45,408 bases of DNA, from positions 1-45,408 of the forward strand of contig JAJPJN010000033.1 in NCBI GenBank assembly GCA_021324185.1, in the 5' to 3' direction. Shown piece by piece: positions 3,781-30,016 of the stretch (its first letter is position 1; each line of letters opens with the position of its first letter). Origin of the DNA: Terriglobia bacterium. GTDB lineage: Bacteria > Acidobacteriota > Terriglobia > Bryobacterales > Bryobacteraceae. The position numbers and the translations under genes are program-made. A model generated the notes under the pieces. That model was not told the origin of the DNA, did no database searches, and saw nothing but the letters and a program-made list of their open reading frames with translations.

Positions 3781-5913
3781 TTGTCAACCATTCAGGCGCA
3801 GTCGCTGGAAGAGCTTTGCATTAACACCATTCGCTTTCTCTCTGCAGATGCTGTGCAGAATGCCAACTCCGGACATCCCGGAATGCCCATGGGTGCAGCC
3901 GCTATGGCCTACACGTTATGGACGAAATACCTGAAGTTCAATCCCAAAGATCCGACTTGGTTCGATCGCGATCGCTTCATCCTCTCAGCCGGCCATGGAT
4001 CGATGTTGTTGTATAGCCTGCTGTATTTGACCGGTTACGATCTGCCCCTGGACGAATTGAAGCGTTTCCGCAAGTGGGGGAGCAAAACGCCCGGCCATCC
4101 GGAGCGTGGGCATACGGTGGGCGTCGAAGTCGCCACTGGACCACTCGGTCAGGGGTTCGGGAATGCTGTTGGAATGGCTATTGCTGAGGCTTGGCTGGCG
4201 GCCAATTTCAATCGCCCGGGCCACACGATCATTGATCACTACACATATGGCATCTGCGGCGATGGCGACCTGATGGAAGGTGTCAGCCAGGAAGCCGCAT
4301 CGCTGGCAGGCCATCTTCAGCTTGGGAAGCTGATTTTTCTTTACGACAGCAACCACATTTCGCTCGCCGGCGCGACCAGTCTTTGCTTTACGGAAGATGT
4401 TGCCAAGCGCTTTGAGGCCTATGGCTGGCATACGCGGCACGTTCACGAGGGAAACGATACGGAAGAAGTCGCTAAGGCGCTCGATGAAGCGCGCGCCGAG
4501 CACCGCCGGCCATCGCTGATTCTGGTGCATACGCATATCGGCTACGGCAGCCCGCACAAGCAGGACACCTTTGAAGCGCACGGCAACCCGCTGGGCGAAG
4601 AGGAACTGCTGGCAGCGAAAAAGGCTTTGGGTTGGGGATCGATGGACAAGTTTTACCTGCCGGAAGATGCCGTCAATTTTTTCCGCAAGATAGGCGAGAA
4701 GGGTGCAAAAACGCAAGCGGAATGGGGCAAAAAGTTCGACGCCTATAAAAGAGAATTTCCGAATGAGGCGGCGCGGCTAGAGCAGATGATAGCCGGCAAA
4801 TTACCGGAAAATTGGGGTGCCGATCTTCCTAAATGGAAACCGGAGGATAAACCGATTGCGACGCGCGCTGCAGGCGGTCAGGCGCTGAACGCCTTGGCGA
4901 AGCACATTCCGAACATCATCGGGGGTTCCGCAGACCTCAATCCGTCTACCAACACCGCTTTGAAGGACATGGGCGACTTCCAGCCGCCGGAAGCAGGCGG
5001 GCCGGCTGCGCAGGGCGCAGTGGGAGGGGTATGGGGCTATGCCGGCCGCAATCTCGCCTTCGGTGTGCGTGAGCACGCCATGGGCGCAGCCGTAAACGGC
5101 ATGGCCGCGCACGGTGGAGTGCTACCGTTCAGCGCAACCTTTCTGGTTTTTTCCGATTACATGAAGCCCTCCATCCGGTTGGGCGCGCTGAGCCAATTGA
5201 AGGTGTTCTATGTGTTCACGCATGACAGCATTGGTGTCGGTGAGGATGGTCCCACGCATGAACCCGTTGAACAAATTGCAGGCTTACGCGCAATCCCGGG
5301 CTTGAACGTGATGCGTCCCGCCGATGCCACGGAAACCGCGGAATGCTGGGCCGCCGCTGTCCAGTATAATGGCCCTACGCTGTTTGCGCTCACCCGTCAA
5401 AACGTGCCGCACCTGGATAGGAGCAAGGCGACGAATATCAATGTCTCGAAGGGCGCTTACATTCTGGCCGAAGCGGAAGGCGGCGCGCCGGACGTTATTT
5501 TGATCGGGACTGGCTCGGAAGTTTCTCTGTGCATGAAGGCCTATGAAAAACTGCAAGGCTACGGCATCAAAGCGCGTGTAGTCAGCATGCCGAGCTGGTA
5601 CTTTTTCGAACGCCAGGATGAGGCTTACCGCGAAAGCATTCTGCCGCGTTCGATTAAACGGCGCGTGGCCGTGGAGGCAGGCGCTACCTACGGATGGGAA
5701 CGTTGGGCAGGCTGCGAAGGTATCGTCATCGGCATCGATCATTACGGCGCTTCTGCTCCAGGCGCCGAGATTATGAAGAATTTTGGCTTTACAGCCGAGC
5801 ACGTCACCGCAGCGGCGCTGCGGCTCATGGACCGCAATGCGGAAGCAGATAAAGAGTACGGTGGGGAGACCAGCGGCTTCGCCCCTACTGCGGCGCACGA
5901 AGGACACTCGTAA
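3781..5913 (+). CDS. tkt: Transketolase
   Basis: A thiamine-diphosphate and Mg-dependent enzyme that moves two-carbon units between ketoses and aldoses in the non-oxidative pentose phosphate pathway. The TPP motif [13 protein letters not shown] is at residues 160-172. The conserved histidines of GHPG (31) and GHG (72) are present, and the second domain carries the [10 protein letters not shown] motif with the catalytic Glu. The 710 residues cover all three transketolase domains. The start is a TTG with a good AGGAG ribosome site about 8 bases upstream (3768-3772). The next ATG in frame lies far inside the conserved region. The CHAD gene follows 24 bases later, probably in the same transcript, and gnd is a few kilobases downstream, so this is a pentose-phosphate neighbourhood. 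Confidence 0.96.
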
Positions 5914-5937
5914 GCGCTTTCTAGCGCAACGGGCGCC

Positions 5938-6933
5938 ATGCCGTATCGTTTCAAAGCGAAAGAATCCGTCCCTGATGGCATCCGCCGCATCGTGCGCGAG
6001 GAAATCGAGGACGCGACCAAACAATTAAGCCACGCCAAAGGTGCCAATCACGGCAAAGCCATTCATGAAGCACGCAAAAGCATAAAGAAGATTCGCGCGG
6101 TTGTGCGCCTGATCCAGCCGGAGCTTGGGCAAATATATAAGCAGGAAAATGGCCGCCTGGGCGAAGCGGGGCGCCGCCTGTCGGAAATACGCGACGCCGA
6201 AGCCATCATTGAAGTTTTTGACGGTCTGGTTGAAAGATATCGATTGCAACTGAAGCCGCAGGCTATTGCCGCTGTCCGACGAGGGCTGGTGAAGAACAAG
6301 ACGGAAACGGAGGCACGTGTCAGGTTGGATGCGGCCGTTCGCCAGGCCGCCTCGGTGTTGCGTGCGCTGGAGAAGAGATTGGCGGGGTGGCCGCTGAAGG
6401 CAGATGGTTTCGAGGCGATTGCGCCCGGATTCAAAAAACGATACCGGCGCGGGCAGCGCGCCATGGCGACCGCTCGTAAGCAGCCCGCTCCTGAAACATT
6501 TCACGAATGGCGCAAGCGTGTAAAGGACCACTGGTATCACGTGCGATTGCTCGAAAGCCTGTGCACCGAGGTTTTACAAACTCGTGAAGGCGCGTTGAAG
6601 GAGTTGGAGACCTGGCTTGGGGATGATCACAATCTGTTTGTGCTGTGCGGCAAACTTCGGGATGATCAGGAGCGCTATGGCGGCGCCGAAAACGTTGAGC
6701 TTTTTGCCGCTCTGATGGAGGAGTACAGCAAGGAGCTGCGGGACAAAGCTTTTTCGCTCGGCGAAAGGATCTATGAACAGAAGCCAAAGCTACTGGGGCG
6801 CGAAATGGAGCGCCTCTGGGATACGTGGCAGAATCAACCGGCAAGCATGAAAGAGGAAGGAAAACAACAGCAACGGGCCCAGAAAAAAGGCGCCGGCCAG
6901 GCACAATTTAGAGCGAAGCGAGCCCTTGCGTAA
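5938..6933 (+). CDS. CHAD domain-containing protein
   Basis: The CHAD domain is an all-helical domain with conserved histidines and many basic residues. It binds polyphosphate in the members studied and often sits next to CYTH domains. The two half-repeats are visible: 'IHEARKSIKKIRAVVRL' (about residues 41-57) and 'FHEWRKRVKDHWYHVRLLE' (about 187-205), each starting with the typical His-Glu-x-Arg-Lys. It has no CYTH domain and no signal peptide, so it is a cytoplasmic stand-alone CHAD protein. The last 35 residues are strongly basic and Gln-rich. It begins 24 bases after the transketolase stop and is probably co-transcribed with it. Substrate and partner cannot be read from sequence. Confidence 0.88.
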   Translation: MPYRFKAKESVPDGIRRIVREEIEDATKQLSHAKGANHGKAIHEARKSIKKIRAVVRLIQPELGQIYKQENGRLGEAGRRLSEIRDAEAIIEVFDGLVERYRLQLKPQAIAAVRRGLVKNKTETEARVRLDAAVRQAASVLRALEKRLAGWPLKADGFEAIAPGFKKRYRRGQRAMATARKQPAPETFHEWRKRVKDHWYHVRLLESLCTEVLQTREGALKELETWLGDDHNLFVLCGKLRDDQERYGGAENVELFAALMEEYSKELRDKAFSLGERIYEQKPKLLGREMERLWDTWQNQPASMKEEGKQQQRAQKKGAGQAQFRAKRALA

Positions 6934-6949
6934 GCGTTCAAGATCCAGT

Positions 6950-7288
6950 GCGCTTTGGTTGAAGCGGAGCGTGTGAGGGCTTTCCGGAGCAAGTGACGAG
7001 CGTATACTTGCGTTCGCAGTCAAGGAAGACCGGATTCTGATTACTTTGGATGCGGACTTCGCAAACGTAACTTCGCTTCCCGGCCGAACACCCCTGGGCT
7101 GGTACGCCTTCGCCTGCACCTGCCGACAGAGGACGCAATCAGGGATACTCTTCGCAAAGCGCTTCTCCTGCTGAAGGGTAATCGGGCGCCAATGAGGAGG
7201 ATTGCCTTATTGCTCCTGCACAAACTTTGTTTTCACAACGCGTCCCGAATGCCGCTGAGCATTTCGCTTTTCCATCGCGGCAACTAGG
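6950..7288 (+). pseudogene. Decayed DUF5615 (PIN-like, toxin-type) gene remnant
   Basis: Not an intact ORF, but two frames joined by a shift read as a DUF5615 family protein. Frame one, from about 6986, gives GASDERILAFAVKEDRILIT, then LDADFANVTSLPGRTPLG, where the LDADF acidic motif is diagnostic. From about 7099 the next frame gives LVRLRLHLPTEDAIRDTLRK and ALLLLKGN, which is the expected continuation, and it stays open to a TAG ending at 7288. In the first frame a TGA lies at about 6973-6975, just before the visible homology, so the N-terminal third is missing or frameshifted. Intact relatives are small PIN-like proteins usually paired with a DUF433-type antitoxin gene, and I see no partner here. 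Confidence 0.6.
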
Positions 7289-7363
7289 GTGTACGAGTTC
7301 TGGTTTGGGGATCGGTGCCTGCGGGAATCTGCGAAGCCGTGTCCGGACTGGACAGAAAAGATT

Positions 7364-7438
<75 letters not shown>

Positions 7439-7569
7439 GCAACGCGCCGCATGTCGCCAGCGTGCGACGCCAACGCCGGGCCATGCGGGACAAAACCTAT
7501 TAAAGCATATTTGGGCCCTTGCGTCCGAAATAAGCGGGTCGCCGCTCTGATTCGCTTTAATGGTTATTT

Positions 7570-9030
7570 ATGCAAAACGCAAGCTGCGATATCGGCCTGA
7601 TCGGCCTGGCTGTCATGGGGCAAAATCTGGTCCTGAATATGAATGACCACGGCTATCGTGTGGCTGTATTCAATCGGACCGTTTCCAAAGTCGACGAGTT
7701 TCTCGATCATGAAGCCAAAGGAACACAAGTAGTAGGCGCCCATTCCATTCAGGAACTTATCCAGTTGCTCAAGCGCCCGCGGCGGGTTATGCTCATGGTC
7801 AAAGCGGGAGAGACTGTTGATCAGATGATCGAGCAAGTCGTACCGCATCTGGAAAAGGGCGACATCATCATCGATGGCGGCAACTCGCATTTTCCGGACA
7901 CAAACCGCCGGACCAAAGACTTGAACGAGAAAGGCATTCTGTTTATCGGAACCGGCGTCTCTGGCGGAGAAGAGGGCGCGCGCTTCGGACCGTCGATCAT
8001 GCCCGGCGGGAATGTGGAAGCGTGGCCTCACGTTAAAGATATTTTCCAATCCATCGCGGCAAAGGTGGAGGATGGCACGCCCTGCTGCGATTGGGTGGGC
8101 GAGGCCGGGGCAGGCCACTACGTTAAGATGGTCCACAACGGCATCGAATACGGCGATATGCAGTTGATCTGTGAGGCGTATCAACTGCTGAAAGACGGCT
8201 TGGGTCTAAGCGCCGATGAGCTGCACGAAGTCTTTGACAATTGGAACAAGGGCGAACTCGATAGCTTCCTGATTGAGATCACAGCCGAAATTTTCACCAA
8301 GAAAGATGACGACGGCCAGCCGCTGATTGACAAAATTCTCGATACCGCCGGTCAAAAAGGAACGGGTAAGTGGACGGCCACCAGCGCGCTGGATCTCGGA
8401 ATGCCCGTGACGCTGATCGGCGAAGCAGTCTTCGCGCGCTGCCTTTCAGCAATCAAGGACGAAAGGGTTGCTGCCGCCAAGATCCTTCATGGTCCTGCGC
8501 ATAGGCAGGACTCTCACGATAAAAAAGCGTTTATTGAGGATGTGCGGCGCGCGCTCTATTGCTCAAAAATCATCTCCTATGCGCAGGGTTACATGCTATT
8601 GCGCGAGGCGGCCAAAGAGCAGGGCTGGAATCTCAACATGGGTGGCATCGCACTGATGTGGCGCGGCGGCTGCATCATCCGGAGCCGTTTTCTGGGCAAA
8701 ATCAAAGAAGCCTATGATAAGAACCCCAAACTGACCAACCTGCTGCTGGACGATTTCTTCAGTAAGACGTTGAACGACTATCAAGCCGCCTGGCGCAAAG
8801 CCGTCATTCACGCAATTGGTTTCGGCGTCCCCACCCCGGCGTTTTCCACTGCGCTCGCGTTTTTTGACGGATACCGCACGGAACGCCTGCCGGCCAACCT
8901 GCTGCAGGCCCAGCGTGACTTCTTCGGCGCCCACACCTATGAGCGCGTCGACCAGCCGCGCGGCCAGTTTTTTCATACCAACTGGACAGGGCGCGGCGGC
9001 CGGGTCGCTTCCGGGTCCTACAATGCTTAA
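7570..9030 (+). CDS. gnd: 6-phosphogluconate dehydrogenase (decarboxylating)
   Basis: It converts 6-phosphogluconate and NADP+ to ribulose-5-phosphate, CO2 and NADPH, the second oxidative step of the pentose phosphate pathway. The Rossmann nucleotide-binding motif is at the N-terminus (GLIGLAVMGQNL, about residues 9-20). It is followed by the family-specific substrate loop GTGVSGGEEGARFGPSIMPG and the catalytic region HNGIEYGDMQLICEAY. The C-terminal 'RGGCIIRS' and the tail 'RGQFFHTNWTGRGG' are also typical. At 486 residues it is the length of the long dimeric class. The ATG start has only a weak upstream ribosome site. The upstream region includes the divergent tRNA-Asn. Confidence 0.97.
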   Translation: MQNASCDIGLIGLAVMGQNLVLNMNDHGYRVAVFNRTVSKVDEFLDHEAKGTQVVGAHSIQELIQLLKRPRRVMLMVKAGETVDQMIEQVVPHLEKGDIIIDGGNSHFPDTNRRTKDLNEKGILFIGTGVSGGEEGARFGPSIMPGGNVEAWPHVKDIFQSIAAKVEDGTPCCDWVGEAGAGHYVKMVHNGIEYGDMQLICEAYQLLKDGLGLSADELHEVFDNWNKGELDSFLIEITAEIFTKKDDDGQPLIDKILDTAGQKGTGKWTATSALDLGMPVTLIGEAVFARCLSAIKDERVAAAKILHGPAHRQDSHDKKAFIEDVRRALYCSKIISYAQGYMLLREAAKEQGWNLNMGGIALMWRGGCIIRSRFLGKIKEAYDKNPKLTNLLLDDFFSKTLNDYQAAWRKAVIHAIGFGVPTPAFSTALAFFDGYRTERLPANLLQAQRDFFGAHTYERVDQPRGQFFHTNWTGRGGRVASGSYNA

Positions 9031-20643: not shown

Positions 20644-21038
20644 TGCAGCGTGTAAAGGTACGCGGCGATGTCGCGCGCCTGTCGTTCCGTCACGCCGAGA
20701 TCGGGCATTGCATTGCCGGGATCAATGTCCTGAGGCTTTGAAATCCAGCGGGAAAGATTTTCGGGCGTGTTGACCAACAAGCCTGCGACGTAGTAACGGG
20801 CTCCGAACCCTTGAAGCGTTGGGCCCACCGTTCCCTTCGCCCCTGCTATTCCCGGAATTACATGGCAAGTGCCGCAACCGTATGCGTAGATGAGGTGCTG
20901 GCCGACTTTGACATCACCGCCCATCGCCTGCTGCCCCAGTTCTGTTTCTTCATGCCCGCCACAAGCAGAGAGAAGCATCACAAACAGGGCCAAAGCGCAC
21001 CAGGCGAGACGCACCTTCGCGAAGATAACATAAGGCAC
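20640..21038 (-). CDS. Monoheme cytochrome c lipoprotein
   Basis: The real gene is shorter than the longest open frame. Starting at the GTG at 21038 gives 132 residues with a lipoprotein signal peptide (lipobox LLSACG, lipidated Cys at about 26). One heme site follows (C55-GT-C58-H59), with Met ligand in 'GNAMPDLGV'. The extra N-terminal part of the longer frame lacks a signal peptide and is low in hydrophobicity, so it is rejected. The product would be an outer- or inner-membrane-attached electron carrier. The stop overlaps the start of the diheme cytochrome. Its start is only about 9 bases from the start of the divergent kdp histidine kinase. Confidence 0.82.
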   Translation of the reverse strand: MPYVIFAKVRLAWCALALFVMLLSACGGHEETELGQQAMGGDVKVGQHLIYAYGCGTCHVIPGIAGAKGTVGPTLQGFGARYYVAGLLVNTPENLSRWISKPQDIDPGNAMPDLGVTERQARDIAAYLYTLQ

Positions 21039-21047
21039 GGCACGCCG

Positions 21048-22460
21048 ATGAGAATGGACCCGCTGCGCACACCTCTGCGTTACCTGGCGTGCCTTGTCTG
21101 GATCGCCGTAATCACAGGCGTCTGTTACGCCGCCCATGTGAACGCAACGACGGCCGCACTCGCCATGCTGCTGCTGGTTTTGGGCGCCGCCACGCGCTGG
21201 GGCTTCCGTGAGTCTGTGGTTACTTCCGCTGCCGCCATGCTGGCCTTCAATTACTTCTTTTTGCCGCCGGTCGGCAGCTTCACCATTGCCGATTCCCAAA
21301 ACTGGATCGCCCTCTGCGCATTTCTCATAACCGCGGTCGTGGTGAGCCGGCTCTCTGCGCGCGCCAAGGCACAGACACGCGAGGCCCTCGTGAAACAGCG
21401 CGAAATCGAGCGGCTCTATCAACTAAGCCGTGCCATGTTGATGGACGAGTTCTCTGATCTGCTCCACACCGCTCTAATTCCTGCAGCGCAGATTTTTTCC
21501 CTCGAGCACATTACGTTTTACGATACGGATTCGAAACAGATAACTGGTCCCGCCAAAGCAGCGAATTGGACGGAAACTGATCTAGTGCGCGTAGCGAGTT
21601 CAGGCGAACCTGTGCTTTCCCCCGCATCTGCAATCATTCCCGTCCGTCTGGGGAACAGAATTGTCGGCAGTTTGGCCTTAAGCGGACCACCACTCGGTGA
21701 AGCTGAACGGGATTCCATTGCCAATCTCATCGCGATCGCGTATGAACGCGCGCGAGCGCTGGACCGCGCCGCGGCGGCTGAGGCCGCACGGCAAGGCGAG
21801 AAGCTGAAAACTCTTCTGCTGGATGGAATTGCCCATAACCTCAAAACTCCACTTACCGCTATCAAGACCTGCGTCACTACGCTGCTCACCGTTCCGCCGC
21901 AAAACGATGAGCAGCGCCTGGAAATGTTGAGCATTATCAGCGAAGAAGCAAATCGCCTTCAACACACGATTACGGAAGCCGTTCAGTTGGCGCGAATCGA
22001 ATCCGGTAAGATTACTCTCGAACGCCGGCCGGTCTGCATGCGTGATTTGTTTCGGACCACCATCGCCGCGCTAGGCGACAGCGAACGCTATCAGCTATCC
22101 GTAGATGCTGAGCTGGTTGTACAGTCGGACCCGGACCTGCTCAGCGAGGCCATTCGCCAACTTTTAGAAAACTCTCACAAGTATGCGGCTGCTGCCACGC
22201 CGATTGAGATTAGGGCTGCCATGGACAGCGGCTCGGTTTTGGTACAGGTTTTCGATCGCGGGCCCGGTATCAGCCCCAGTGAGATCAATCGCATCTTTGA
22301 AAAATATTTTCGTGGCACGCGAGCCCGGCAAACGGTACAGGGCACAGGAATGGGGCTCGCGATTGCCAAAGGCATCATAGAAGCCCACGGCGGTGGTATC
22401 TGGGCGGAAAATCGTCCGGGCGGCGGCGCGATATTCTCGTTTCAGCTTCCGCTTACATGA
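21048..22460 (+). CDS. KdpD C-terminal half: membrane sensor histidine kinase lacking the KdpD N-domain
   Basis: A 470-residue histidine kinase equal to the C-terminal half of KdpD. It has hydrophobic DUF4118-type segments (about residues 10-100), a GAF-like region (about 125-235), then HisKA with phospho-acceptor His263 (IAHNLKTPLTAI). The HATPase follows with the N-box LLENSHKYA and the G-boxes DRGPGI and GTGMGLAI. The N-terminal Walker-type sensor and USP domains of classical KdpD are absent and lie in two separate genes after kdpC. The start was placed at the ATG at 21048 (the ATG at 21054 is an alternative), because the longer frame upstream has no family resemblance. It overlaps kdpE by ATGA. 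It phosphorylates KdpE when K+ is low, going by the Kdp family. Confidence 0.88.
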   Translation: MRMDPLRTPLRYLACLVWIAVITGVCYAAHVNATTAALAMLLLVLGAATRWGFRESVVTSAAAMLAFNYFFLPPVGSFTIADSQNWIALCAFLITAVVVSRLSARAKAQTREALVKQREIERLYQLSRAMLMDEFSDLLHTALIPAAQIFSLEHITFYDTDSKQITGPAKAANWTETDLVRVASSGEPVLSPASAIIPVRLGNRIVGSLALSGPPLGEAERDSIANLIAIAYERARALDRAAAAEAARQGEKLKTLLLDGIAHNLKTPLTAIKTCVTTLLTVPPQNDEQRLEMLSIISEEANRLQHTITEAVQLARIESGKITLERRPVCMRDLFRTTIAALGDSERYQLSVDAELVVQSDPDLLSEAIRQLLENSHKYAAAATPIEIRAAMDSGSVLVQVFDRGPGISPSEINRIFEKYFRGTRARQTVQGTGMGLAIAKGIIEAHGGGIWAENRPGGGAIFSFQLPLT

Positions 22461-23161
22461 GATCGGCAACCATCCTGGTCATTGATGACGAGCCGCAGTT
22501 GCGCCGCGCGCTCAAGGCCACGCTTGCGGTTACGGGCTACACCGTTGTTGAAGCGAAGAGCGGGGAAGAGGCGCTTCAGTCGCTCCATGAATTGCAACCG
22601 GATCTGATTCTGCTCGACTTGAATATGCCGGGAGTGGGCGGCCTCGAAACCTGCCGTGCGCTTCGCCGCATATGCGACCTTCCAATTATTATTCTTTCTG
22701 TCCGTAATTCCGAAGCAGATAAAGTCAATGCGCTCGATGCCGGTGCGGACGACTATGTCACAAAGCCGTTCGGGATCCAGGAATTGCTGGCGCGCATTCG
22801 GGCCGCTATGCGCCGCAGCTTATCCCCACCCGAAGACGAAATCCGCATCATTCATGCCGGAGAGCTGGATATTGACTTTGAAGCACGGCAAGTAAGTGTC
22901 AATGACAGAACAGTCCGGTTGACGCCAAAGGAATTTGACCTCCTGCGCTTTCTGGCAAAAAACCCCAACAAAGCAATTCCGCATCGCAAACTGCTGCAAA
23001 CCGTGTGGGGGCCTGAATACGGCGACGAAGTCGAGTATCTGCGTGTCTTTGTGAACTCGTTACGCAAGAAAATTGAGCCGGAACCATCGAAGCCGCAGTA
23101 TTTGATAACGGAACCATGGGTCGGCTATCGTTTCGTGCTGCCGAAACCGACAGACTCCTAA
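22457..23161 (+). CDS. kdpE: KdpE response regulator
   Basis: An OmpR-family response regulator of 234 residues. The receiver domain has the acidic pair Asp10/Asp11-Glu12 (IDDEP), phospho-acceptor Asp54 (LILLDLNMPG) and the switch Lys in YVTKPFG. The C-terminal winged helix contains 'VRLTPKEFDLLRFLAKNP', 'KLLQTVWGPEYGDEVEYLRV' and 'NSLRKKIE', all typical of KdpE. It activates transcription of the kdp uptake genes after phosphorylation by the KdpD kinase. The start overlaps the kinase stop (ATGA at 22457-22460), so it is translationally coupled. A 59-base gap then leads to the small membrane ORF, and this gap is the likely place for a kdp promoter or KdpE site. I see no clear boxes there. Confidence 0.95.
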   Translation: MRSATILVIDDEPQLRRALKATLAVTGYTVVEAKSGEEALQSLHELQPDLILLDLNMPGVGGLETCRALRRICDLPIIILSVRNSEADKVNALDAGADDYVTKPFGIQELLARIRAAMRRSLSPPEDEIRIIHAGELDIDFEARQVSVNDRTVRLTPKEFDLLRFLAKNPNKAIPHRKLLQTVWGPEYGDEVEYLRVFVNSLRKKIEPEPSKPQYLITEPWVGYRFVLPKPTDS

Positions 23162-23313: not shown

Positions 23314-23397
23314 GTGGAATACGTCGTCGCAGGAATCATTTCAATTGCTCTCGGAGCCTACCTCGTTTATGCTTTACTTCGGCCGGAGAAGTTTTAA
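23314..23397 (+). CDS. kdpF: KdpF, small subunit of the Kdp K+ transporter
   Basis: A 27-residue single-span membrane protein, EYVVAGIISIALGAYLVYAL followed by LRPEKF. The 'YLVYALLRPEKF' end is the typical KdpF C-terminus. KdpF stabilises the KdpABC complex in Escherichia coli. The GTG start at 23314 has a perfect AGGAG site at 23303-23307. It ends 3 bases before kdpA. It is easily missed because of its length. Confidence 0.9.
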   Translation: MEYVVAGIISIALGAYLVYALLRPEKF

Positions 23398-23400
23398 AAC

Positions 23401-25146
23401 ATGACCTCGAACGGCTGGTTTCAGATCGCATTTTTTTTCGTATTAATCGTGGCCAGCGCCAAACCGTTAGGCTCGTTTATCGCAAACGTAATAGAAGGCC
23501 GCAAGACGTTTCTATCCCCTATCTTGGGGCCGCTGGAGCGCCTTGTTTATAAGCTATGCGGCATTGATCCAGCACAGGAACAGCGCTGGACGCAATACAC
23601 AGCCGCCTTACTTGCGTTCAGCGCCTTCAGTTGTATTCTTCTTTACGCCTTGCAGCGCCTGCAAGGCTTTCTGCCGTTCAATCCGCAGCATTATGGCGCC
23701 GGATCCGTCAGCCCCGATCTCGCCTTCAACACATCCGCGAGTTTTGGCACGAATACGAACTGGCAGAGCTATACGCCGGAAACGACGCTCAGCTATCTGG
23801 TTCAAATGGCCGGACTCACGGTGCATAATTTTCTTTCTGCTGCTGCGGGTCTGGCCATCGCAATTGCGCTCGTACGCGGCTTTGCACGCCAGTCGATAAA
23901 GACGATCGGAAATTTTTGGGCAGATCTTACGCGCTCCACGCTTTACATACTGATGCCCATGTCCCTAATCGCGGCAATATTCCTCTGCTCCCAGGGCGTC
24001 ATTCAGAACTTGCATCCATATACGGTTGTCACGACCCTCGAAGGCGCCAAGCAGATCATTGCGCAAGGCCCTGTGGCTTCGCAGGAAGCAGTCAAGATGC
24101 TGGGCACAAATGGCGGTGGGTTTTTCAACGCCAACTCTGCTCACCCGTTTGAAAATCCCACGCCGCTTTCCAACATGTTCGAAATGTTCCTCATTTTTCT
24201 GATTCCCGGAGCGCTCACTTACACGTTCGGAAAGATGGTGCGCGATACACGCCAAGGCTGGGCCATGTTTGCAGCCATGTCTCTGTTGTGGCTTGCCGGT
24301 GTAGTTACGGCTTACCACTATGAGCAGAACGGAACGCCCATCCTCGCTCGAAATGGCATTGCTGTCCAAGCATCGGCCACTCAGCCGGGCGGCAATATGG
24401 AAGGCAAAGAGACACGCTTTGGTATTGCTGATTCCGCGCTATTCGCTACGGTAACCACGGACGCAAGCTGCGGAGCGGTGAACAGCATGCATGATAGTTT
24501 CACGCCGCTTGGCGGCCTGGTGCCGCTGTTCAATATTCAACTCGGTGAAGTAGTGTTTGGGGGTGTCGGCGCCGGCCTCTACGGCATGTTGATGTTCGCC
24601 ATTTTGGCCGTATTTATCGCCGGCTTGATGGTGGGCCGCACACCAGAGTATCTGGGCAAGAAGATCGAGCAAAAGGAAGTAAAAATGGCAATGCTTTCTT
24701 TGCTCATTCTGGCCGCTTGCATTCTTCTCTTCGCGGGCGCCTCCTCTGTAATCCCTTTTGACAAAGGAAGTTATTGGAATCCGCCAGGCCCGGCGACGGC
24801 CAATCTCACAAATCCTGGGCCGCACGGCTTTTCCGAAATCCTGTATGCGTATACCAGCGGAACAGGAAATAACGGGAGCGCCTTCGGCGGTTTGAATCCA
24901 AACACGCCCTGGTACAACCTGACGATTGGGGTGGTGATGCTGTTTGGCCGCTTTTTCATGATTATTCCCTTGCTCGCCGTCGCTGGCTCGCTCGCAGACA
25001 AGAAACAAGTTCCGGTTTCGGCCGGAACATTTCCGACGCATGGGCCTCTGTTCGTCGCCTTATTAACCGGCGTTGTCATCGTCGTGGGCGCCTTGACCTA
25101 TTTCCCGGCGCTCTCGCTCGGGCCGCTAATCGAGCACTTGTTGTAA
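23401..25146 (+). CDS. kdpA: KdpA, K+-transporting ATPase K+-channel subunit
   Basis: The K+-binding and channel-like subunit of the KdpFABC pump in the inner membrane, 581 residues, a little longer than the E. coli protein. It has many hydrophobic helices and four selectivity-filter-like loops: '[15 protein letters not shown]', '[20 protein letters not shown]', '[17 protein letters not shown]' and '[19 protein letters not shown]'. These match the KdpA signature loops, and the fold is related to K+ channels (SKT superfamily). The ATG at 23401 follows kdpF immediately. kdpB starts 6 bases after its stop, so kdpF-A-B-C form one transcript. Confidence 0.97.
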
Positions 25147-25152
25147 ATCATC

Positions 25153-27279
25153 ATGCCAGTCCAAATTGAAACCAGCGTAGCCAGCCCTGCTGAGCCGCAT
25201 ATGCAGCAGGTCGCTGATGCTTTGAAACGGGGCAAACGTGCACGGCCGCTGTTCGATCCTCCGATTGTGCGCCGTGCTTTGATCGATTCATTTGCCAAGC
25301 TAAATCCGCGCACCCTTGCCAAAAATCCTGTCATGTTCGTGGTCGAGGTAGGAGCTGCGCTCACGACGGTTCTACTGTTCCAGTCCATCGCAGCCCATCG
25401 CCCGGGCTGGGGTTTCGACTTTCAAATTACTCTTTGGTTATGGTTTACCGTGCTGTTCGCAAACTTCGCGGAGGCTATGGCGGAGGGCCGCGGCAAAGCG
25501 CAGGCGGATAGCCTGCGCAAAGCGAAAACGGAAACGTTTGCGAAAAAACTGGTTAACGGAAAAATCGAAATTGTGCCGGCATCGTCGCTTCGTAAGGGAG
25601 ATATCTGCCTTTGTGAACCTAACGATCTGATTCCTGGCGATGGCGAGGTGATTGATGGTATAGCCAGCGTAGACGAATCCGTCATAACGGGTGAAAGCGC
25701 TCCCGTTATCCGCGAATCCGGCGGTGATCGCAGCGCCGTAACAGGCGGTACCAAAGTTCTTTCGGATTGGATCAAGATACAGATCACATCAAATCCCGGC
25801 GAAACGTTTCTCGATCGCATGATCGCGCTGGTCGAAGGTGCGCAACGCCAAAAGACACCGAACGAAATCGCGCTGAACATCATGATCGCCGGGTTAACGT
25901 TGATCTTCTTACTGGCATGCGTGACGCTCGCGCCTTTCGCCCAGTATGCTGTCGTTTCCGCGGGAGCCGGAAAGGTTCCCGGCCTGGTCGTGCTGGTTGC
26001 ATTGCTCGTCTGTTTGATTCCGACGACCATCGGGGGCCTGCTCTCGGCCATCGGCATAGCCGGCATGGATCGCGTCATGCAACACAACGTGCTCGCCATG
26101 AGCGGGAAGGCCGTAGAAGCAGCAGGTGACGTCAATACGCTGCTGCTCGACAAAACCGGCACCATCACGCTCGGAAACCGCCAGGCTGTTGCATTTCTAC
26201 CAGCCGAAGGCGTGACTGCAGAGGAACTGGCAGACGCGGCCCAGTTCTCGAGCCTTGCCGATGAGACGCCCGAGGGACGCAGCATCGTCGTGCTTGCGAA
26301 AGAAAAGTATGGGCTTCGTGGCCGTGAAATTTCGGCGCTCGAAGCGGAGTTCATTCCGTTCAGTGCACAGACTCGAATGAGCGGAGTGAATATGCATGGT
26401 CGTGCGATCCGTAAAGGCGCGACGGAGTCTATTAAGCGCTACGTCCTGCAAAGCGGAGGCGTTTTTTCGCAGGCCGTAAGCGAAATCTCGGATCGTATCT
26501 CTCGCGACGGCGGGACGCCGCTGGCGGTTGCGGAGAATGGCCGCGCTCTAGGCGTTATTCATCTAAAGGATGTCGTCAAAGGCGGAATGCGCCAGCGCTT
26601 CGATCAGATGCGCACAATGGGCATTCGCACCGTAATGATCACAGGCGATAATCCCCTTACTGCTGCCGCCATCGCACGCGAAGCCGGTGTAGACGATTTT
26701 CTGGCCCAGGCCACGCCAAGAGACAAGCTGGACCTTATACGCCGCGAGCAGGCGAGTGGCCGTCTGGTGGCGATGACCGGCGATGGCACGAACGACGCTC
26801 CCGCGCTCGCGCAAGCTGATGTAGGGGTTGCCATGAACACAGGCACCATGGCCGCCAAAGAAGCCGGCAACATGGTCGATCTCGATAGCAATCCGACCAA
26901 GCTCATTGAAGTCGTGGCGATCGGCAAACAGTTGCTGATCACGCGGGGCGCGCTGACTACATTTTCAATTGCAAATGACGTAGCCAAATACTTTGCCATT
27001 ATCCCGGCCATGTTCACCATCACCTATCCCCCCCTCGCCAAGCTCAACATCATGCGGCTGCATTCACCCGAAAGCGCGATTCTCGCTGCCGTCATATTCA
27101 ACGCGCTCATTATCATCGCGCTGGTCCCTCTCGCGCTGCGCGGCGTAAAATACCGGCCGCTCAGTGCCGGAGCTCTTTTGCGCCGTAACCTGCTGGTGTA
27201 CGGGCTGGGCGGTATCATCGCGCCGTTTCCGGGCATTTGGGTGGTTGACAGGGTACTCGGAATTTTGCATCTCGCTTAG
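25153..27279 (+). CDS. kdpB: KdpB, ATP-hydrolysing subunit of the K+-transporting P-type ATPase
   Basis: The P-type ATPase subunit that energises K+ import through KdpA, 708 residues. The actuator loop is [16 protein letters not shown]. The phosphorylation site is Asp333 in [10 protein letters not shown], and the nucleotide/hinge motif is [19 protein letters not shown]. The family's diagnostic '[22 protein letters not shown]' follows. The N-terminal 40 residues are longer than in E. coli, and the C-terminus has three hydrophobic helices. The stop TAG is immediately followed by the AGGAG site of kdpC. Confidence 0.97.
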
Positions 27280-27289
27280 GAGTTCAAGA

Positions 27290-27868
27290 ATGTTTTCTCA
27301 ACTCAGGCCCGCCGTTCTGATCACCATTGTGATGACCGTGCTCACCGGCCTCATTTATCCGCTCGCCATCACCGGCATAGCACAGGTGATCTTCCCTTAT
27401 CAGGCTAATGGCAGCCTGGCTGTGCGCAATGGGACGGCGGTCGGCTCCGAGCTGATTGGCCAGGCATTTACCAAGCCCGAGTATTTCCATCCGCGGCCGT
27501 CAGCCGCCGGCCCTAAGGGTTATGATGCCACCGCCTCGGGCGGTTCGAATCTCGGCCCTACAAATCCGGATCTGGCAAAGCGCATCGAGAAAGATGCTGC
27601 TGAATATCGCGCTGAAAACGGCGTGACAAGCGGAATTCCGGCCGATGCGGTAACCACTTCGGGCAGTGGCCTTGATCCCGATATCAGCCCGGCCAACGCG
27701 CTGCTTCAGGCGCGGCGAATCGCCCGCGCGCGCCAGGTTGCGGAAACTGAAATCATGGCGCTCGTCCGCAAGAACACAAAAGGACGCGAGCTCGGCTTTA
27801 TGGGCGAACCGCGCGTCAACGTGCTGCAATTGAATATAGATTTGGATTTGCAGTATCCCATGAGGTAG
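27290..27868 (+). CDS. kdpC: KdpC, K+-transporting ATPase subunit C
   Basis: A single-span membrane subunit that helps assemble the complex, 192 residues. The N-terminal helix is 'LRPAVLITIVMTVLTGLIYP', followed by 'GSELIGQAFTKPEYFHPRPS', 'ASGGSNLGPTNPDL' and 'IPADAVTTSGSGLDPDISP', all family signatures. I used the ATG at 27290, which has an AGGAG site at 27278-27282; the longer frame upstream lies inside kdpB. The first KdpD sensor gene starts 2 bases after the stop. Confidence 0.97.
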   Translation: MFSQLRPAVLITIVMTVLTGLIYPLAITGIAQVIFPYQANGSLAVRNGTAVGSELIGQAFTKPEYFHPRPSAAGPKGYDATASGGSNLGPTNPDLAKRIEKDAAEYRAENGVTSGIPADAVTTSGSGLDPDISPANALLQARRIARARQVAETEIMALVRKNTKGRELGFMGEPRVNVLQLNIDLDLQYPMR

Positions 27869-27870
27869 TC

Positions 27871-28965
27871 GTGGTTTCTAAAGAAGTGGCCCGGCCTGAT
27901 CCGGAAGAATTGCTGCGGCAGCTTCATGAAGAAGATGCGGAACAGCGTCGCGGCCGCCTCAAGATCTTCCTTGGCTACGCACCGCGCGTAGGAAAATCGG
28001 CGCGCATGTTGGATGAGGGCCGCCGCCGCGCAACACGTGGTCAGGATGTGGTGGTTGGCTGGATCCAGGCGAAGGGCGCCGAACGTGTCAAAGAATTGAT
28101 ACGCTGCTTTGAGGTCATACCGCCGGCCACGGTGAACCGGACCGAGCAGCTCGATGTGGATGCGATCCTTCGCCGCAACCCCGAGCTTTGCATCATTGAT
28201 GAACTGGCGTGGGATAATCCACCCGGTGGCCCGCATGCCCATCGCTGGCAAGATGTCGAGCAACTCGTGAACGCGGGAATCTCAGTACTTACGGCTCTAA
28301 ACCTGCAGCATGTAGCCGAGCAACAGAACAACGTCCAGCGCATTACCGGAAAGCGGGCATCGCTCTCTGTTCCGCAGGAATTCGTTCAGTCTGCGGACGA
28401 AATCGAGATTGTCGATGCATCACTCGATTCATTGAGTGAATGTGGCATCGTCAAATCACGGCTGGATGCCCAGCAGTGCTCGGAGCTGCGGGAATTGGCG
28501 CTTCTGCTTGCCGCCGAAGTGGTGGATGCGCAACTCCTGCGCTATATGAAAAGGCACGGCATACGGCAGTCCTGGAGCGCGCACGAGCGGATTCTGGTCT
28601 CCATCACTCCCAAAACCGATGCCCGGAGGATGATTGAAAGCGCCGCGCGCGCCGCAGCCCGTTTTCACGGCGAGTGGACTGCTCTTTACATCGAACAGCC
28701 GGATCTCACGCGCGAAGCGCAGGAACGAGTTGACGAATTCCTCGAATACGCGCGCAAACTGGGGGCAGAAATTCAGATTCTCAAGAACGAAACTGATGCT
28801 GTCAGCGCAATTATTCGTTTCGCCCGTGAAAGCCGCATCACGCAGCTCTTCGTCGGTCATCTGCAGTGGAAGACATGGAAACTTTGGGCGCAGCCGCCGC
28901 TGGAGCGGCTGATCAGCGCCTCCGATGGAATGGATGTCCGTATCTTCCCTACCCAGCCGGCCTGA
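27871..28965 (+). CDS. KdpD N-terminal sensor-like protein, copy 1 (diverged P-loop, USP domain)
   Basis: A 364-residue protein matching only the N-terminal half of KdpD. The P-loop segment reads 'KIFLGYAPRVGKSARML': Gly41-Lys42-Ser43 are kept, but the residue that is Gly in the classic loop is Arg39. The Walker-B-like region is 'CIIDELAWDNPPGGPHAHRW' (classic: DELAHTNAPGS), so the family His and Thr are lost. A USP domain follows, with S244-I-T246 and, after 22 residues, W269-T-A-L-Y273. This resembles the SxS-x20-FTAxY motif reported for c-di-AMP binding by Staphylococcus aureus KdpD. No membrane helices and no kinase domain are present. GTG start, 2 bases after kdpC. The 3' end overlaps copy 2 by 41 bases. 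The weaker ATPase motif suggests divergence of role, which is inference. Confidence 0.87.
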   Translation: MVSKEVARPDPEELLRQLHEEDAEQRRGRLKIFLGYAPRVGKSARMLDEGRRRATRGQDVVVGWIQAKGAERVKELIRCFEVIPPATVNRTEQLDVDAILRRNPELCIIDELAWDNPPGGPHAHRWQDVEQLVNAGISVLTALNLQHVAEQQNNVQRITGKRASLSVPQEFVQSADEIEIVDASLDSLSECGIVKSRLDAQQCSELRELALLLAAEVVDAQLLRYMKRHGIRQSWSAHERILVSITPKTDARRMIESAARAAARFHGEWTALYIEQPDLTREAQERVDEFLEYARKLGAEIQILKNETDAVSAIIRFARESRITQLFVGHLQWKTWKLWAQPPLERLISASDGMDVRIFPTQPA

Positions 28966-30016
28966 ACTATCGCGCGGCGAGCTAAAAATCTTTCTTGGCT
29001 ACGCCGCGGGTGTCGGCAAGACGTATCAGATGCTGGTTGACGCCCAGCTAATGAAAGAGCAGGGTCTCGATATTATTATCGGCTACTTCGAGCCTCACAA
29101 CCGCCCCGATACGATTGCCAAAACAGAGGGGCTGGAAACGGTGCCACGCAAGATCATTGAGCATCGCGGTGCGCGCCTGGAAGAGATGGATACCGGCGCC
29201 ATTTTGCGCCGCAACCCGCAGATCTGTGTAGTCGATGAATTCGCACATACGAATGCGCCCGGGTCGCCGCGTGCGAAGAGATGGGAGGACGTGATGATTC
29301 TGCTCGACGCCGGCATCACCGTCCTCACCAGCATGAACGTGCAGCATATCGAGAGTCTCAATGATCAGATCTGGCAAATGACCGGTGTCCGTGTGCGCGA
29401 AACGGTGCCGGATTGGGTAATTAATGAAGCCGATGACGTTGTGATGGTAGACCTGACTCCGCGCGCTCTGCTTAACCGTTTGGAGCGCGGTGTCGTCTAT
29501 CCCCCGGAGAAGGTGCGCGCTGCACTCCAGAACTTTTTTACCGAATCGAACCTGATCGCTCTTCGCGAGTTAGCTCTCCGGCAAGCAGCCCATCAAGTGG
29601 AAGACCAACGCGAAGAACTGCAGTACGAATATCCCGCAATAGTTCCAAACCCGAACCGCGGCAAAGAAAGGATTCTGATATGGCTCACGGATGATCCCGC
29701 AGCCGCGATGCTCATTCGTCGCGGACGGCGTGTAGCTGACTACTTGCAATCCGAATGTCTCGCCGTTGCCGTTTCAGACGATCACCGTGATCCGAAAGCA
29801 AAGGCGCAATTAGACCGGCACCTGAACTTCTCACGTAACATGCGCATCACCCCGGAAGTGATCTCGGCCAAAGATGCCGCCGCCGCTGTTGCAGACTATG
29901 CCCGCAATCACGGCATCACCCAAATCTTTGTAACCCGACACGTGCCTGACCTCCTCAAGCTGGTTCGCCTGGTGCGGGACCTGCAGGTGACGATTGTTTC
30001 GGAAAGGCCCAGATAG
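28925..30016 (+). CDS. KdpD N-terminal sensor protein, copy 2 (intact P-loop)
   Basis: A second, better-conserved copy of the KdpD N-terminal half, 363 residues. It has the classic loop 'KIFLGYAAGVGKTYQML' (Gly31-Lys32-Thr33), then 'GYFEPHNRPDT' and 'CVVDEFAHTNAPGSPRAKRW'. A USP-like C-terminal domain (from about residue 240, 'KERILIWLTDDPAAAMLI') lacks the FTAxY-type motif of copy 1. It has no kinase domain. Translation starts at the ATG at 28925 (or 28934) inside the end of copy 1, so the two are coupled. Stand-alone KdpD N-halves of about 365 residues are known from some cyanobacteria. Here it would have to work in trans with the kinase encoded before kdpE. Confidence 0.9.
   Translation: MEWMSVSSLPSRPELSRGELKIFLGYAAGVGKTYQMLVDAQLMKEQGLDIIIGYFEPHNRPDTIAKTEGLETVPRKIIEHRGARLEEMDTGAILRRNPQICVVDEFAHTNAPGSPRAKRWEDVMILLDAGITVLTSMNVQHIESLNDQIWQMTGVRVRETVPDWVINEADDVVMVDLTPRALLNRLERGVVYPPEKVRAALQNFFTESNLIALRELALRQAAHQVEDQREELQYEYPAIVPNPNRGKERILIWLTDDPAAAMLIRRGRRVADYLQSECLAVAVSDDHRDPKAKAQLDRHLNFSRNMRITPEVISAKDAAAAVADYARNHGITQIFVTRHVPDLLKLVRLVRDLQVTIVSERPR

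Follow-up and report, generated by a model that had tools for sequence, protein, structure and literature searches.

The kdp locus described here lies in the window (i.e., the whole 45,408-nucleotide stretch of Terriglobia DNA that was analyzed) and includes two short KdpD-like proteins, which we term copy 1 and copy 2. In the reading to which we give moderate credence, copy 1 is a pseudokinase that serves as a sensor, copy 2 is a kinase that inhibits KdpB, and the locus was acquired by a genus without diadenylate cyclase, in which the pocket of copy 1 is drifting. We also put forward, as a possibility that falls clearly short of probable, a more general mechanism for Terriglobia. This mechanism would be a split, messenger-gated serine kinase, in which a c-di-AMP-binding pseudokinase (copy 1) allosterically controls the kinase (copy 2) that acts on KdpB. 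A new loop, C-x-T-P-R-[SA]-[NS]-A, would replace the SxS..N residues, and the pocket would change while the frame survives once a lineage loses c-di-AMP or the locus enters a lineage without it.

The window carries a complete locus of the split type on the plus strand, with a separate histidine kinase (HK), KdpE, kdpFABC and two short KdpD-N/USP chains. The HK chain of the split KdpD (20811..22460) has DUF4118, HisKA and HATPase_c domains by Pfam and no KdpD-N domain, and it is followed by a KdpE-like response regulator (22457..23161; Pfam Response_reg and Trans_reg_C). A small membrane peptide read from the sequence (23314..23397, probable GTG start) is KdpF-like. Next are kdpA (23401..25146; Pfam KdpA, 819.7 bits), kdpB (25153..27279; named from its sequence and the operon order) and kdpC (27290..27868, with its ATG at 27290; Pfam KdpC, 255.5 bits). 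The TGES of E. coli KdpB is kept in the window's KdpB, where it was read at residues 179-182. In the E. coli protein the TGES serine is Ser162, to which Ser182 (25696-25698) of the window corresponds; regulation through Ser162 is reported in PMC11018627.

Copy 1, a predicted pseudokinase-type sensor paralogue of 364 amino acids, occupies 27871..28965, and copy 2, by sequence an intact serine-kinase paralogue, occupies 28925..30016, both again on the plus strand. The frame of copy 2 overlaps the end of copy 1 by 41 nt, and a second ATG of copy 2 is at 28934. Both proteins belong to PF02702 (KdpD N-terminal domain; cut-off 26.1 bits), with copy 1 scoring 183.8 bits over profile positions 1-169 of 210, and copy 2 scoring 299.6 bits over positions 2-210.

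Among the best 80 of 295 related loci, all bear Acidobacteriota names, mostly of Terriglobia and Bryobacterales. In PMC11018627, split KdpD systems, in which an atypical serine kinase (ASK) is separate from the HK, are reported as commonest in Acidobacteriota and Chloroflexota, and they comprise a KdpD/Usp chain and a TM/DHpCA chain, as in the window. However, the window differs from these reported systems in having two diverged KdpD/Usp chains in tandem. In the passages of that paper that were consulted a second, degenerate KdpD/Usp chain is not mentioned, and its main text does not contain the terms "two copies", "degenerate" or "catalytically inactive". Among the open-licence papers listed by literature searches, likewise none deals in its title or abstract opening with a short KdpD that is both second and degenerate.

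Copy 1 and copy 2 fall into separate clades of a 54-protein KdpD-N tree, each with support of 100/100. The two are ancient paralogues within the KdpD-N/USP proteins of Terriglobia (Acidobacteriota), and their genes as a rule abut or overlap. Among 80 named loci, 79 could be assessed, and in 70 of these copy 2 adjoins copy 1 and shares its strand, with a median gap of -4 nt. When the loci are divided by whether a diadenylate cyclase was found in their genome, copy 2 is beside copy 1 in 57 of 58 positive cases, in 11 of 19 negative ones and in both of the two that match weakly. Seven of the nine named loci that have no neighbouring copy 2 come from the window's own genus. Two other genomes of this genus, G005 and G001, have copy 1 downstream of kdpABC with no copy 2 alongside. 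In G005, copy 2 is located elsewhere, beside an HK and KdpE; in G011, the copies are adjacent. The loci behind these observations are L043 4017-7292, L044 8715-9818, L045 8483-9586 and L049 6940-9190.

In E. coli KdpD, whose N-terminal part is an atypical serine kinase, the mutations D109A and E110A abolish phosphorylation of KdpB, and W39A/R190A nearly does so, according to Silberberg 2024 (PMC11018627). Equivalents of its Walker A, D109, E110, aromatic 39 and R190 are all found in copy 2 of the window, namely Walker A GYAAGVGKT (28997..29023) with its GKT, Walker B CVVDEFAHTN (29225..29254) with its Asp-Glu, the aromatic residue, and the segment RLERGVVY (29477..29500), which contains the Arg190 equivalent and is not in copy 1. 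The same residues are almost constant among copy 2 relatives: each position of GKT is kept in 69 or 70 of 70 rows, aromatic 39 in 69-70 of 70, and D109, E110 and R190 in 70 of 70. The equivalents of E110 and R190 are also present in 17 of 17 rows of a second alignment. The window differs from E. coli in that its kinase chain is separate from the HK, and in that copy 1 is without parts of the site.

For copy 1, 200 rows were collected, of which 54 were duplicates, leaving 146 distinct rows. The P-loop Lys is present in 144 of these and the Walker B Asp in all 146. The catalytic Walker B Glu, however, is lost in 125 of the 146 (G 118, Q 3, S 2, A 1, P 1). The window's copy 1 is one of the 21 that keep it, and the other 20 are all from cyclase-positive genomes. 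Thus the window's protein has both a Walker A, GYAPRVGKS (residues 35-43; 27973..27999), and a Walker B region, CIIDELAWDNPPGGP (28189..28233), in which the Glu that has gone from most copy 1 relatives is present. This retention of GK[ST] and Asp-Glu, in the window as in the 20 cyclase-positive rows, is what might be expected if copy 1 were itself a second serine kinase, active on a different target. We regard that explanation as improbable, because not one of the 146 copy 1 rows, whether or not it keeps the Glu and the window's own among them, has the segment RLxxGxVY with its adenine-contacting Arg, which is present in 136 of 142 distinct copy 2 rows, and because the AHTN loop is altered to AWDN. 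In the window's copy 1, the place aligned with Arg190 is occupied by Cys. An Arg does align at position 190 in 60 of the 146 rows, so this residue taken singly is not uniformly lost. Two copy 1 sequences with the same residues as each other, L029 1471-2535 (minus strand, genome G023) and L133 7866-8930, have lost the P-loop Lys (GMGVS) and retain the cyclase-type pocket loop.

The original prediction had also assigned the two copies a division of labour, with copy 2 ATPase-like and copy 1 responding to a nucleotide second messenger. At the level of the family this idea holds up, since the kinase of copy 2 is by sequence intact, whereas features of the kinase site have gone from copy 1. The short motif from which it had been derived does not. 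This motif consists of S244-I-T246, 22 residues and W269-T-A-L-Y273, which are indeed present in copy 1 (28600-28689) and had been likened to the c-di-AMP motif SxS-x20-FTAxY of S. aureus KdpD (Moscoso 2015, PMC4686210). The first element lies in USP strand b1 and the b1-a1 loop, RILVSITPKTDAR (28588..28626; S244, T246, K248 and D250), and the second, WTALY (269-273), in strand b2 (28675..28689). However, the likeness is out of register by two residues. A phmmer alignment to 7ji4, MAFFT and hhalign agree that S244, S246, N249 and Y271 of S. aureus correspond to T246, K248, A251 and Y273 of copy 1, so that the serines S244 and S246 face T246 and K248. The strands of the copy 1 model (b1 at 240-245 and b2 at 268-274) are consistent with this register.

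In Dutta 2021 (PMC8214093), the c-di-AMP consensus is narrowed to (A/G/C)242, S244, S246, N249 and Y/F271, and F267, T268 and A269 of S. aureus are placed off the ligand interface. At the five consensus positions the window's copy 1 has S, T, K, A and Y, a strict match at one of five (Y273). The same paper gives a point of reference, in that the M. tuberculosis USP, which also matches one of five positions, has an affinity for c-di-AMP about 0.7% as high as that of S. aureus. No alignment row, of 24 for copy 1 and 17 for copy 2, has the complete set of five consensus residues in register, and neither does any of the 146 distinct copy 1 rows.

The motif is not an effect of composition, given that a loose pattern, [ST]x[ST]-x19-23-[FW]TAx[YF], which was defined after the sequence had been inspected, occurred in 0.025% of 20,000 shuffles of the USP part of copy 1. 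It is also not conserved. With duplicates included, the window's row is the only one of 200 for copy 1 to show the loose pattern, which is found in 0 of 182 copy 2 rows, while the strict SxSx20FTAxY occurs in none of either set. WTALY is private to the window among the 200 rows, and WTA occurs in 1 of the 146 distinct rows. The column of the window's S244 holds Cys in 94 of 96 distinct rows from cyclase-bearing genomes, and this first serine of the claimed motif is a lineage-specific change. As to copy 2, which had been said to have no such motif, it is true that it has no element like FTAxY (it has CLAVA). However, it too has Thr at the column equivalent to S. aureus S244, which is S or T in 17 of 17 copy 2 rows, and hence this residue does not tell the copies apart.

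An AlphaFold2 model of copy 1 has a mean pLDDT of 91. Among its Foldseek matches to solved structures, the KdpD N-domain 2r8r scores Z 26.4, and the USP half comes closest to 7ji4, in which the S. aureus domain is complexed with c-di-AMP (Z 17.4; rmsd 2.3 for 123 residues); the next USP structure is at Z 13.4. As modeled, copy 1 has the USP fold of the c-di-AMP-binding KdpD domain. According to PMC8214093 and PMC4686210, the S. aureus USP (7JI4) has Tyr271, Gly329 and a hydroxyl at 244 in common with the window's copy 1. Its Gly329, for which PMC8214093 describes contact with the inner ribose of c-di-AMP, aligns with Gly329 of copy 1 (28855..28857). There are also differences: S. aureus KdpD is a full-length histidine kinase and copy 1 a short chain, and Ser246 and Asn249 are replaced by Lys and Ala in the window's copy and mostly by Arg and Ala in its family. 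The ATP-binding USP loop (USPFG, G-x2-G-x9-G-S/T) was looked for after strand b4, where copy 1 has GHLQ (329-332) and no second Gly.

Neither the window's genome, which is 96.85% complete, nor any other sampled member of its genus (17 genomes, its own included) yielded a diadenylate cyclase (DAC; PF02457). Within that sample, the domain was found in 18 of 19 other genera of the same family, and it matched in 11 of 14 control genomes. Absence of the enzyme had been named in advance as one outcome that would refute the prediction, and by that standard the prediction is refuted for this genome. Other markers of c-di-AMP add little. The riboswitch RF00379 has no match in the window's genome, but because it matches in just 2 of the 14 controls, its absence is weak evidence. 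The PgpH-type phosphodiesterase PF07698 is uninformative, since no match exceeded the cut-off in any of 60 genomes, even those with a cyclase; two matches below the threshold came from a single genome.

A mis-binned contig was considered as a cause of the missing cyclase and excluded, as the genes that flank the kdp locus on both sides match the window's own genus best. HflX and PolX have their best matches there, and a flanking DUF4015 protein reaches E <= 1e-60 in 9 of the 17 genus members versus 0 of 23 other genomes. The flanks are thus of the genus type, and the contig is not a stray.

We therefore reject a c-di-AMP motif of the S. aureus type in the window's copy 1, based on its register, its poor conservation and the lack of a cyclase. 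The window's protein is very improbable as an S. aureus-type sensor that acts through S244/T246 and WTALY. Two key columns do have conservative residues, T246 and Y273, and the USP half is closest to 7ji4; these points would fit such a sensor, but they are outweighed by the shifted register, the single strict consensus match, the cyclase-less genome and genus, and the privacy of WTALY.

The situation is different for the copy 1 family as a whole, whose pocket comprises the loop C-x-T-P-R-[SA]-[NS]-A, a Tyr in b2 and Gly329. For this analysis, cyclase status was assigned to the genomes of the named loci, of which 26 of 30 and 33 of 49 were positive in two sets that share one genome and include two weak positives; negative calls in these genomes were made without completeness figures. 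Copy 1 was also sought in a class-wide sample, for which 399 genomes of at least 90% completeness were requested, 208 of them cyclase-positive. Two copy 1 rows were placed in neither class. Their genomes (those of L129 and L110) gave weak cyclase-like matches only (G115:C267:44919-45272, E 3.7e-9; G097:C378:10550-10912, E 6.7e-7). These matches sit in long frames of 466 and 467 amino acids, which are perhaps a divergent cyclase family. L084, L090 and L112 keep C-x-T-P-R and are suspected false negatives, as incomplete genomes can mislead, but we counted them as negative. New rows were aligned with MAFFT --keeplength, which drops insertions; counts of motifs and segments on the untrimmed sequences were identical.

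The conservation of the pocket follows the presence of the cyclase. In an initial set of 89 distinct rows, C242 and T244 (S. aureus numbering) are invariant in 58 of 58 positives, whereas negatives keep them in 17 of 29 and 12 of 29 rows, respectively. Over all distinct rows, C/A/G-x-T-x-R occurs in 87 of 96 positives versus 5 of 48 negatives, and in held-out rows in 34 of 38 versus 2 of 19. In held-out rows from outside the window's family, the corresponding figures are 4 of 6 and 1 of 17, and single pocket positions there are mostly non-significant, with R246 and Q274 as exceptions. Copy 1 has similar mean entropies in its kinase half (1.39 bits) and USP half (1.44 bits), and so the contrast sits in the pocket columns and not in the USP domain as a whole. 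In copy 2, the kinase half is at 0.96 versus 1.63 bits for USP (cyclase-positive rows), and pocket columns 242 and 329 are variable.

We compared this pattern with the contacts in the S. aureus structure, taken from Dutta (PMC8214093), which prints both Leu334 and Leu344 (344 was used). Of 15 contact columns, 14 were usable for copy 1, and 11 or 13 for copy 2. When 354 columns were ranked by fit to the cyclase, the top five were S. aureus 274, 344, 244, 246 and 272, four of which are reported c-di-AMP contacts (hypergeometric p 7.6e-6). With the window's own-genus clade left out, the enrichment is weaker, although as a group the contact columns are still distinct (rank test p 0.002), and the contacts in the top five fall from four to two; they fall to one when the three doubtful negatives are also left out. 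Copy 2 has no such enrichment (p 0.35). The column that tracks the cyclase best is S. aureus 274 (Q276 of the window), a Gln beside b2 (91 of 96 versus 9 of 48), which is outside the contact set taken from PMC8214093.

Because relatedness could produce such an association, we also examined 16 phylogenetically independent pairs. The pocket is better in the cyclase-positive partner in 13 pairs and worse in one, with two ties; the five residues scored here had been picked on the discovery rows, and the pair tree was built without the pocket columns. With contact columns preset from the S. aureus structure, 12 pairs are better, 2 worse and 2 tied (p 0.0065). Loss at contact columns is 0.214 versus 0.033 at columns matched for conservation, a difference reached in 0 of 3000 draws. 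In the copy 2 control, the pairs also lean slightly toward this outcome (9 better, 3 worse and 2 tied; p 0.07). Chance and kinship as causes of the link between pocket and cyclase were thus tested with held-out rows, independent pairs, matched columns and copy 2, and the link persisted in the held-out rows and the pairs.

The near-constancy of this pocket in organisms that make c-di-AMP is most simply explained if it binds c-di-AMP. The suggestion that copy 1 is second-messenger-like survives for the family, where the pocket is conserved chiefly in the presence of a cyclase, though not for the window's copy. Alternatively, the pocket might be conserved for some other nucleotide or partner (AMP, ATP or a USP-like partner) whose use accompanies the cyclase. 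In support of this, the residues that contact the outer AMP in S. aureus, Ser246 and Asn249, are replaced throughout the family (0 of 146 rows have either), and the pocket of the window's own genus is altered in a consistent manner, with Ser244 in 12, Asp248 in 11 and His271 in 12 of 13 rows (e.g., L012 1483-2586). The pocket of this cyclase-less genus looks remodelled rather than random, as if another ligand had taken over. We nevertheless judge the alternative unlikely, if far from negligible, given that it is chiefly the columns of c-di-AMP contacts that change, and that the pattern recurs in 13 of 14 informative pairs.

The window's copy 1 does not group with the other proteins of its genus. 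It falls with L066-L075 and L109, all of which are in cyclase-bearing genomes, with support of 100/100, and the window's KdpB groups at 99/94 with the six of these loci that have a full kdpB. The own-genus rows form a clade apart from the window in both trees. From this phylogeny, the window's kdp locus appears to have been acquired horizontally from a cyclase-bearing lineage by a cyclase-less genus. In and beside the pocket, the window's copy 1 differs from L066-L075 by C244S, R248K, S249T, N/S250D and V274I. A genus without detectable cyclase and an apparently acquired locus would explain the first four changes as drift of the pocket. C244S is the change that produced the serine with which the claimed motif begins. 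The simplest account is that the locus entered a genus without c-di-AMP, where the copy 1 pocket is no longer kept constant. The window's genome also has a second, partial kdp locus, L042 on contig C1 (kdpB 1-1035, kdpA 1043-2842 and KdpD-N 5221-6342 on the minus strand; HK 6166-7842 on the plus strand), whose KdpD-N/USP protein is a third, different chain that pairs with that of G059 at 100/100.

It might seem that copy 1 is a functionless leftover in this genome, decaying after loss of the messenger, as the pocket has changed at otherwise invariant columns and there is no cyclase. However, the frame and the P-loop are intact and the gene overlaps copy 2, and among positions that are invariant in the clade, 12 of 119 away from the pocket have changed compared with 2 of 5 within it. 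We consider such decay to be quite unlikely. In the reading that we prefer, i.e., a sensor with a drifting pocket, the window's copy 1 most likely functions in the absence of c-di-AMP or uses a different nucleotide.

The mechanism that we propose can be set against the systems characterized to date. Copy 2 would be the functional atypical serine kinase and would shut the pump by phosphorylating KdpB at Ser182, the serine of its TGES. Copy 1, whose kinase site is partly lost, would serve copy 2 as a subunit that senses a ligand and has a regulatory role, most likely by binding or scaffolding it. In relatives that have the messenger, copy 1 would make copy 2 respond to what is probably c-di-AMP. 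In PMC11018627, the KdpD proteins of E. coli and Deinococcus geothermalis are described as phosphorylating E. coli KdpB and stopping the pump, and the D. geothermalis KdpD/Usp serine kinase as activated by c-di-AMP. The latter protein, a regulator of KdpFABC, has the same short two-domain architecture without an HK. However, D. geothermalis has kinase and sensor on one chain, whereas in the window they are proposed to be on two paralogues, with the c-di-AMP signal as a proposed parallel.

The short KdpD loops examined from Deinococcus (L039 5956-7053 and L062 301-1389) have A-x-A-x-E, with Thr at 271. These USP loops, from D. radiodurans and D. ficus, are unlike those of both window copies. 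If the D. geothermalis protein resembles them, then the S. aureus motif is unnecessary for a response to c-di-AMP.

Short KdpD proteins have recently been shown to be serine kinases that act on the potassium pump, with c-di-AMP as a switch in one case. If kinase and sensor have parted in Terriglobia, the path from messenger binding to kinase output could be tested with two small soluble proteins, and the repeated absence of the cyclase among relatives supplies natural controls. If it is true, our proposal would also extend the known modes of c-di-AMP binding by a pattern not captured by the current consensus motif.
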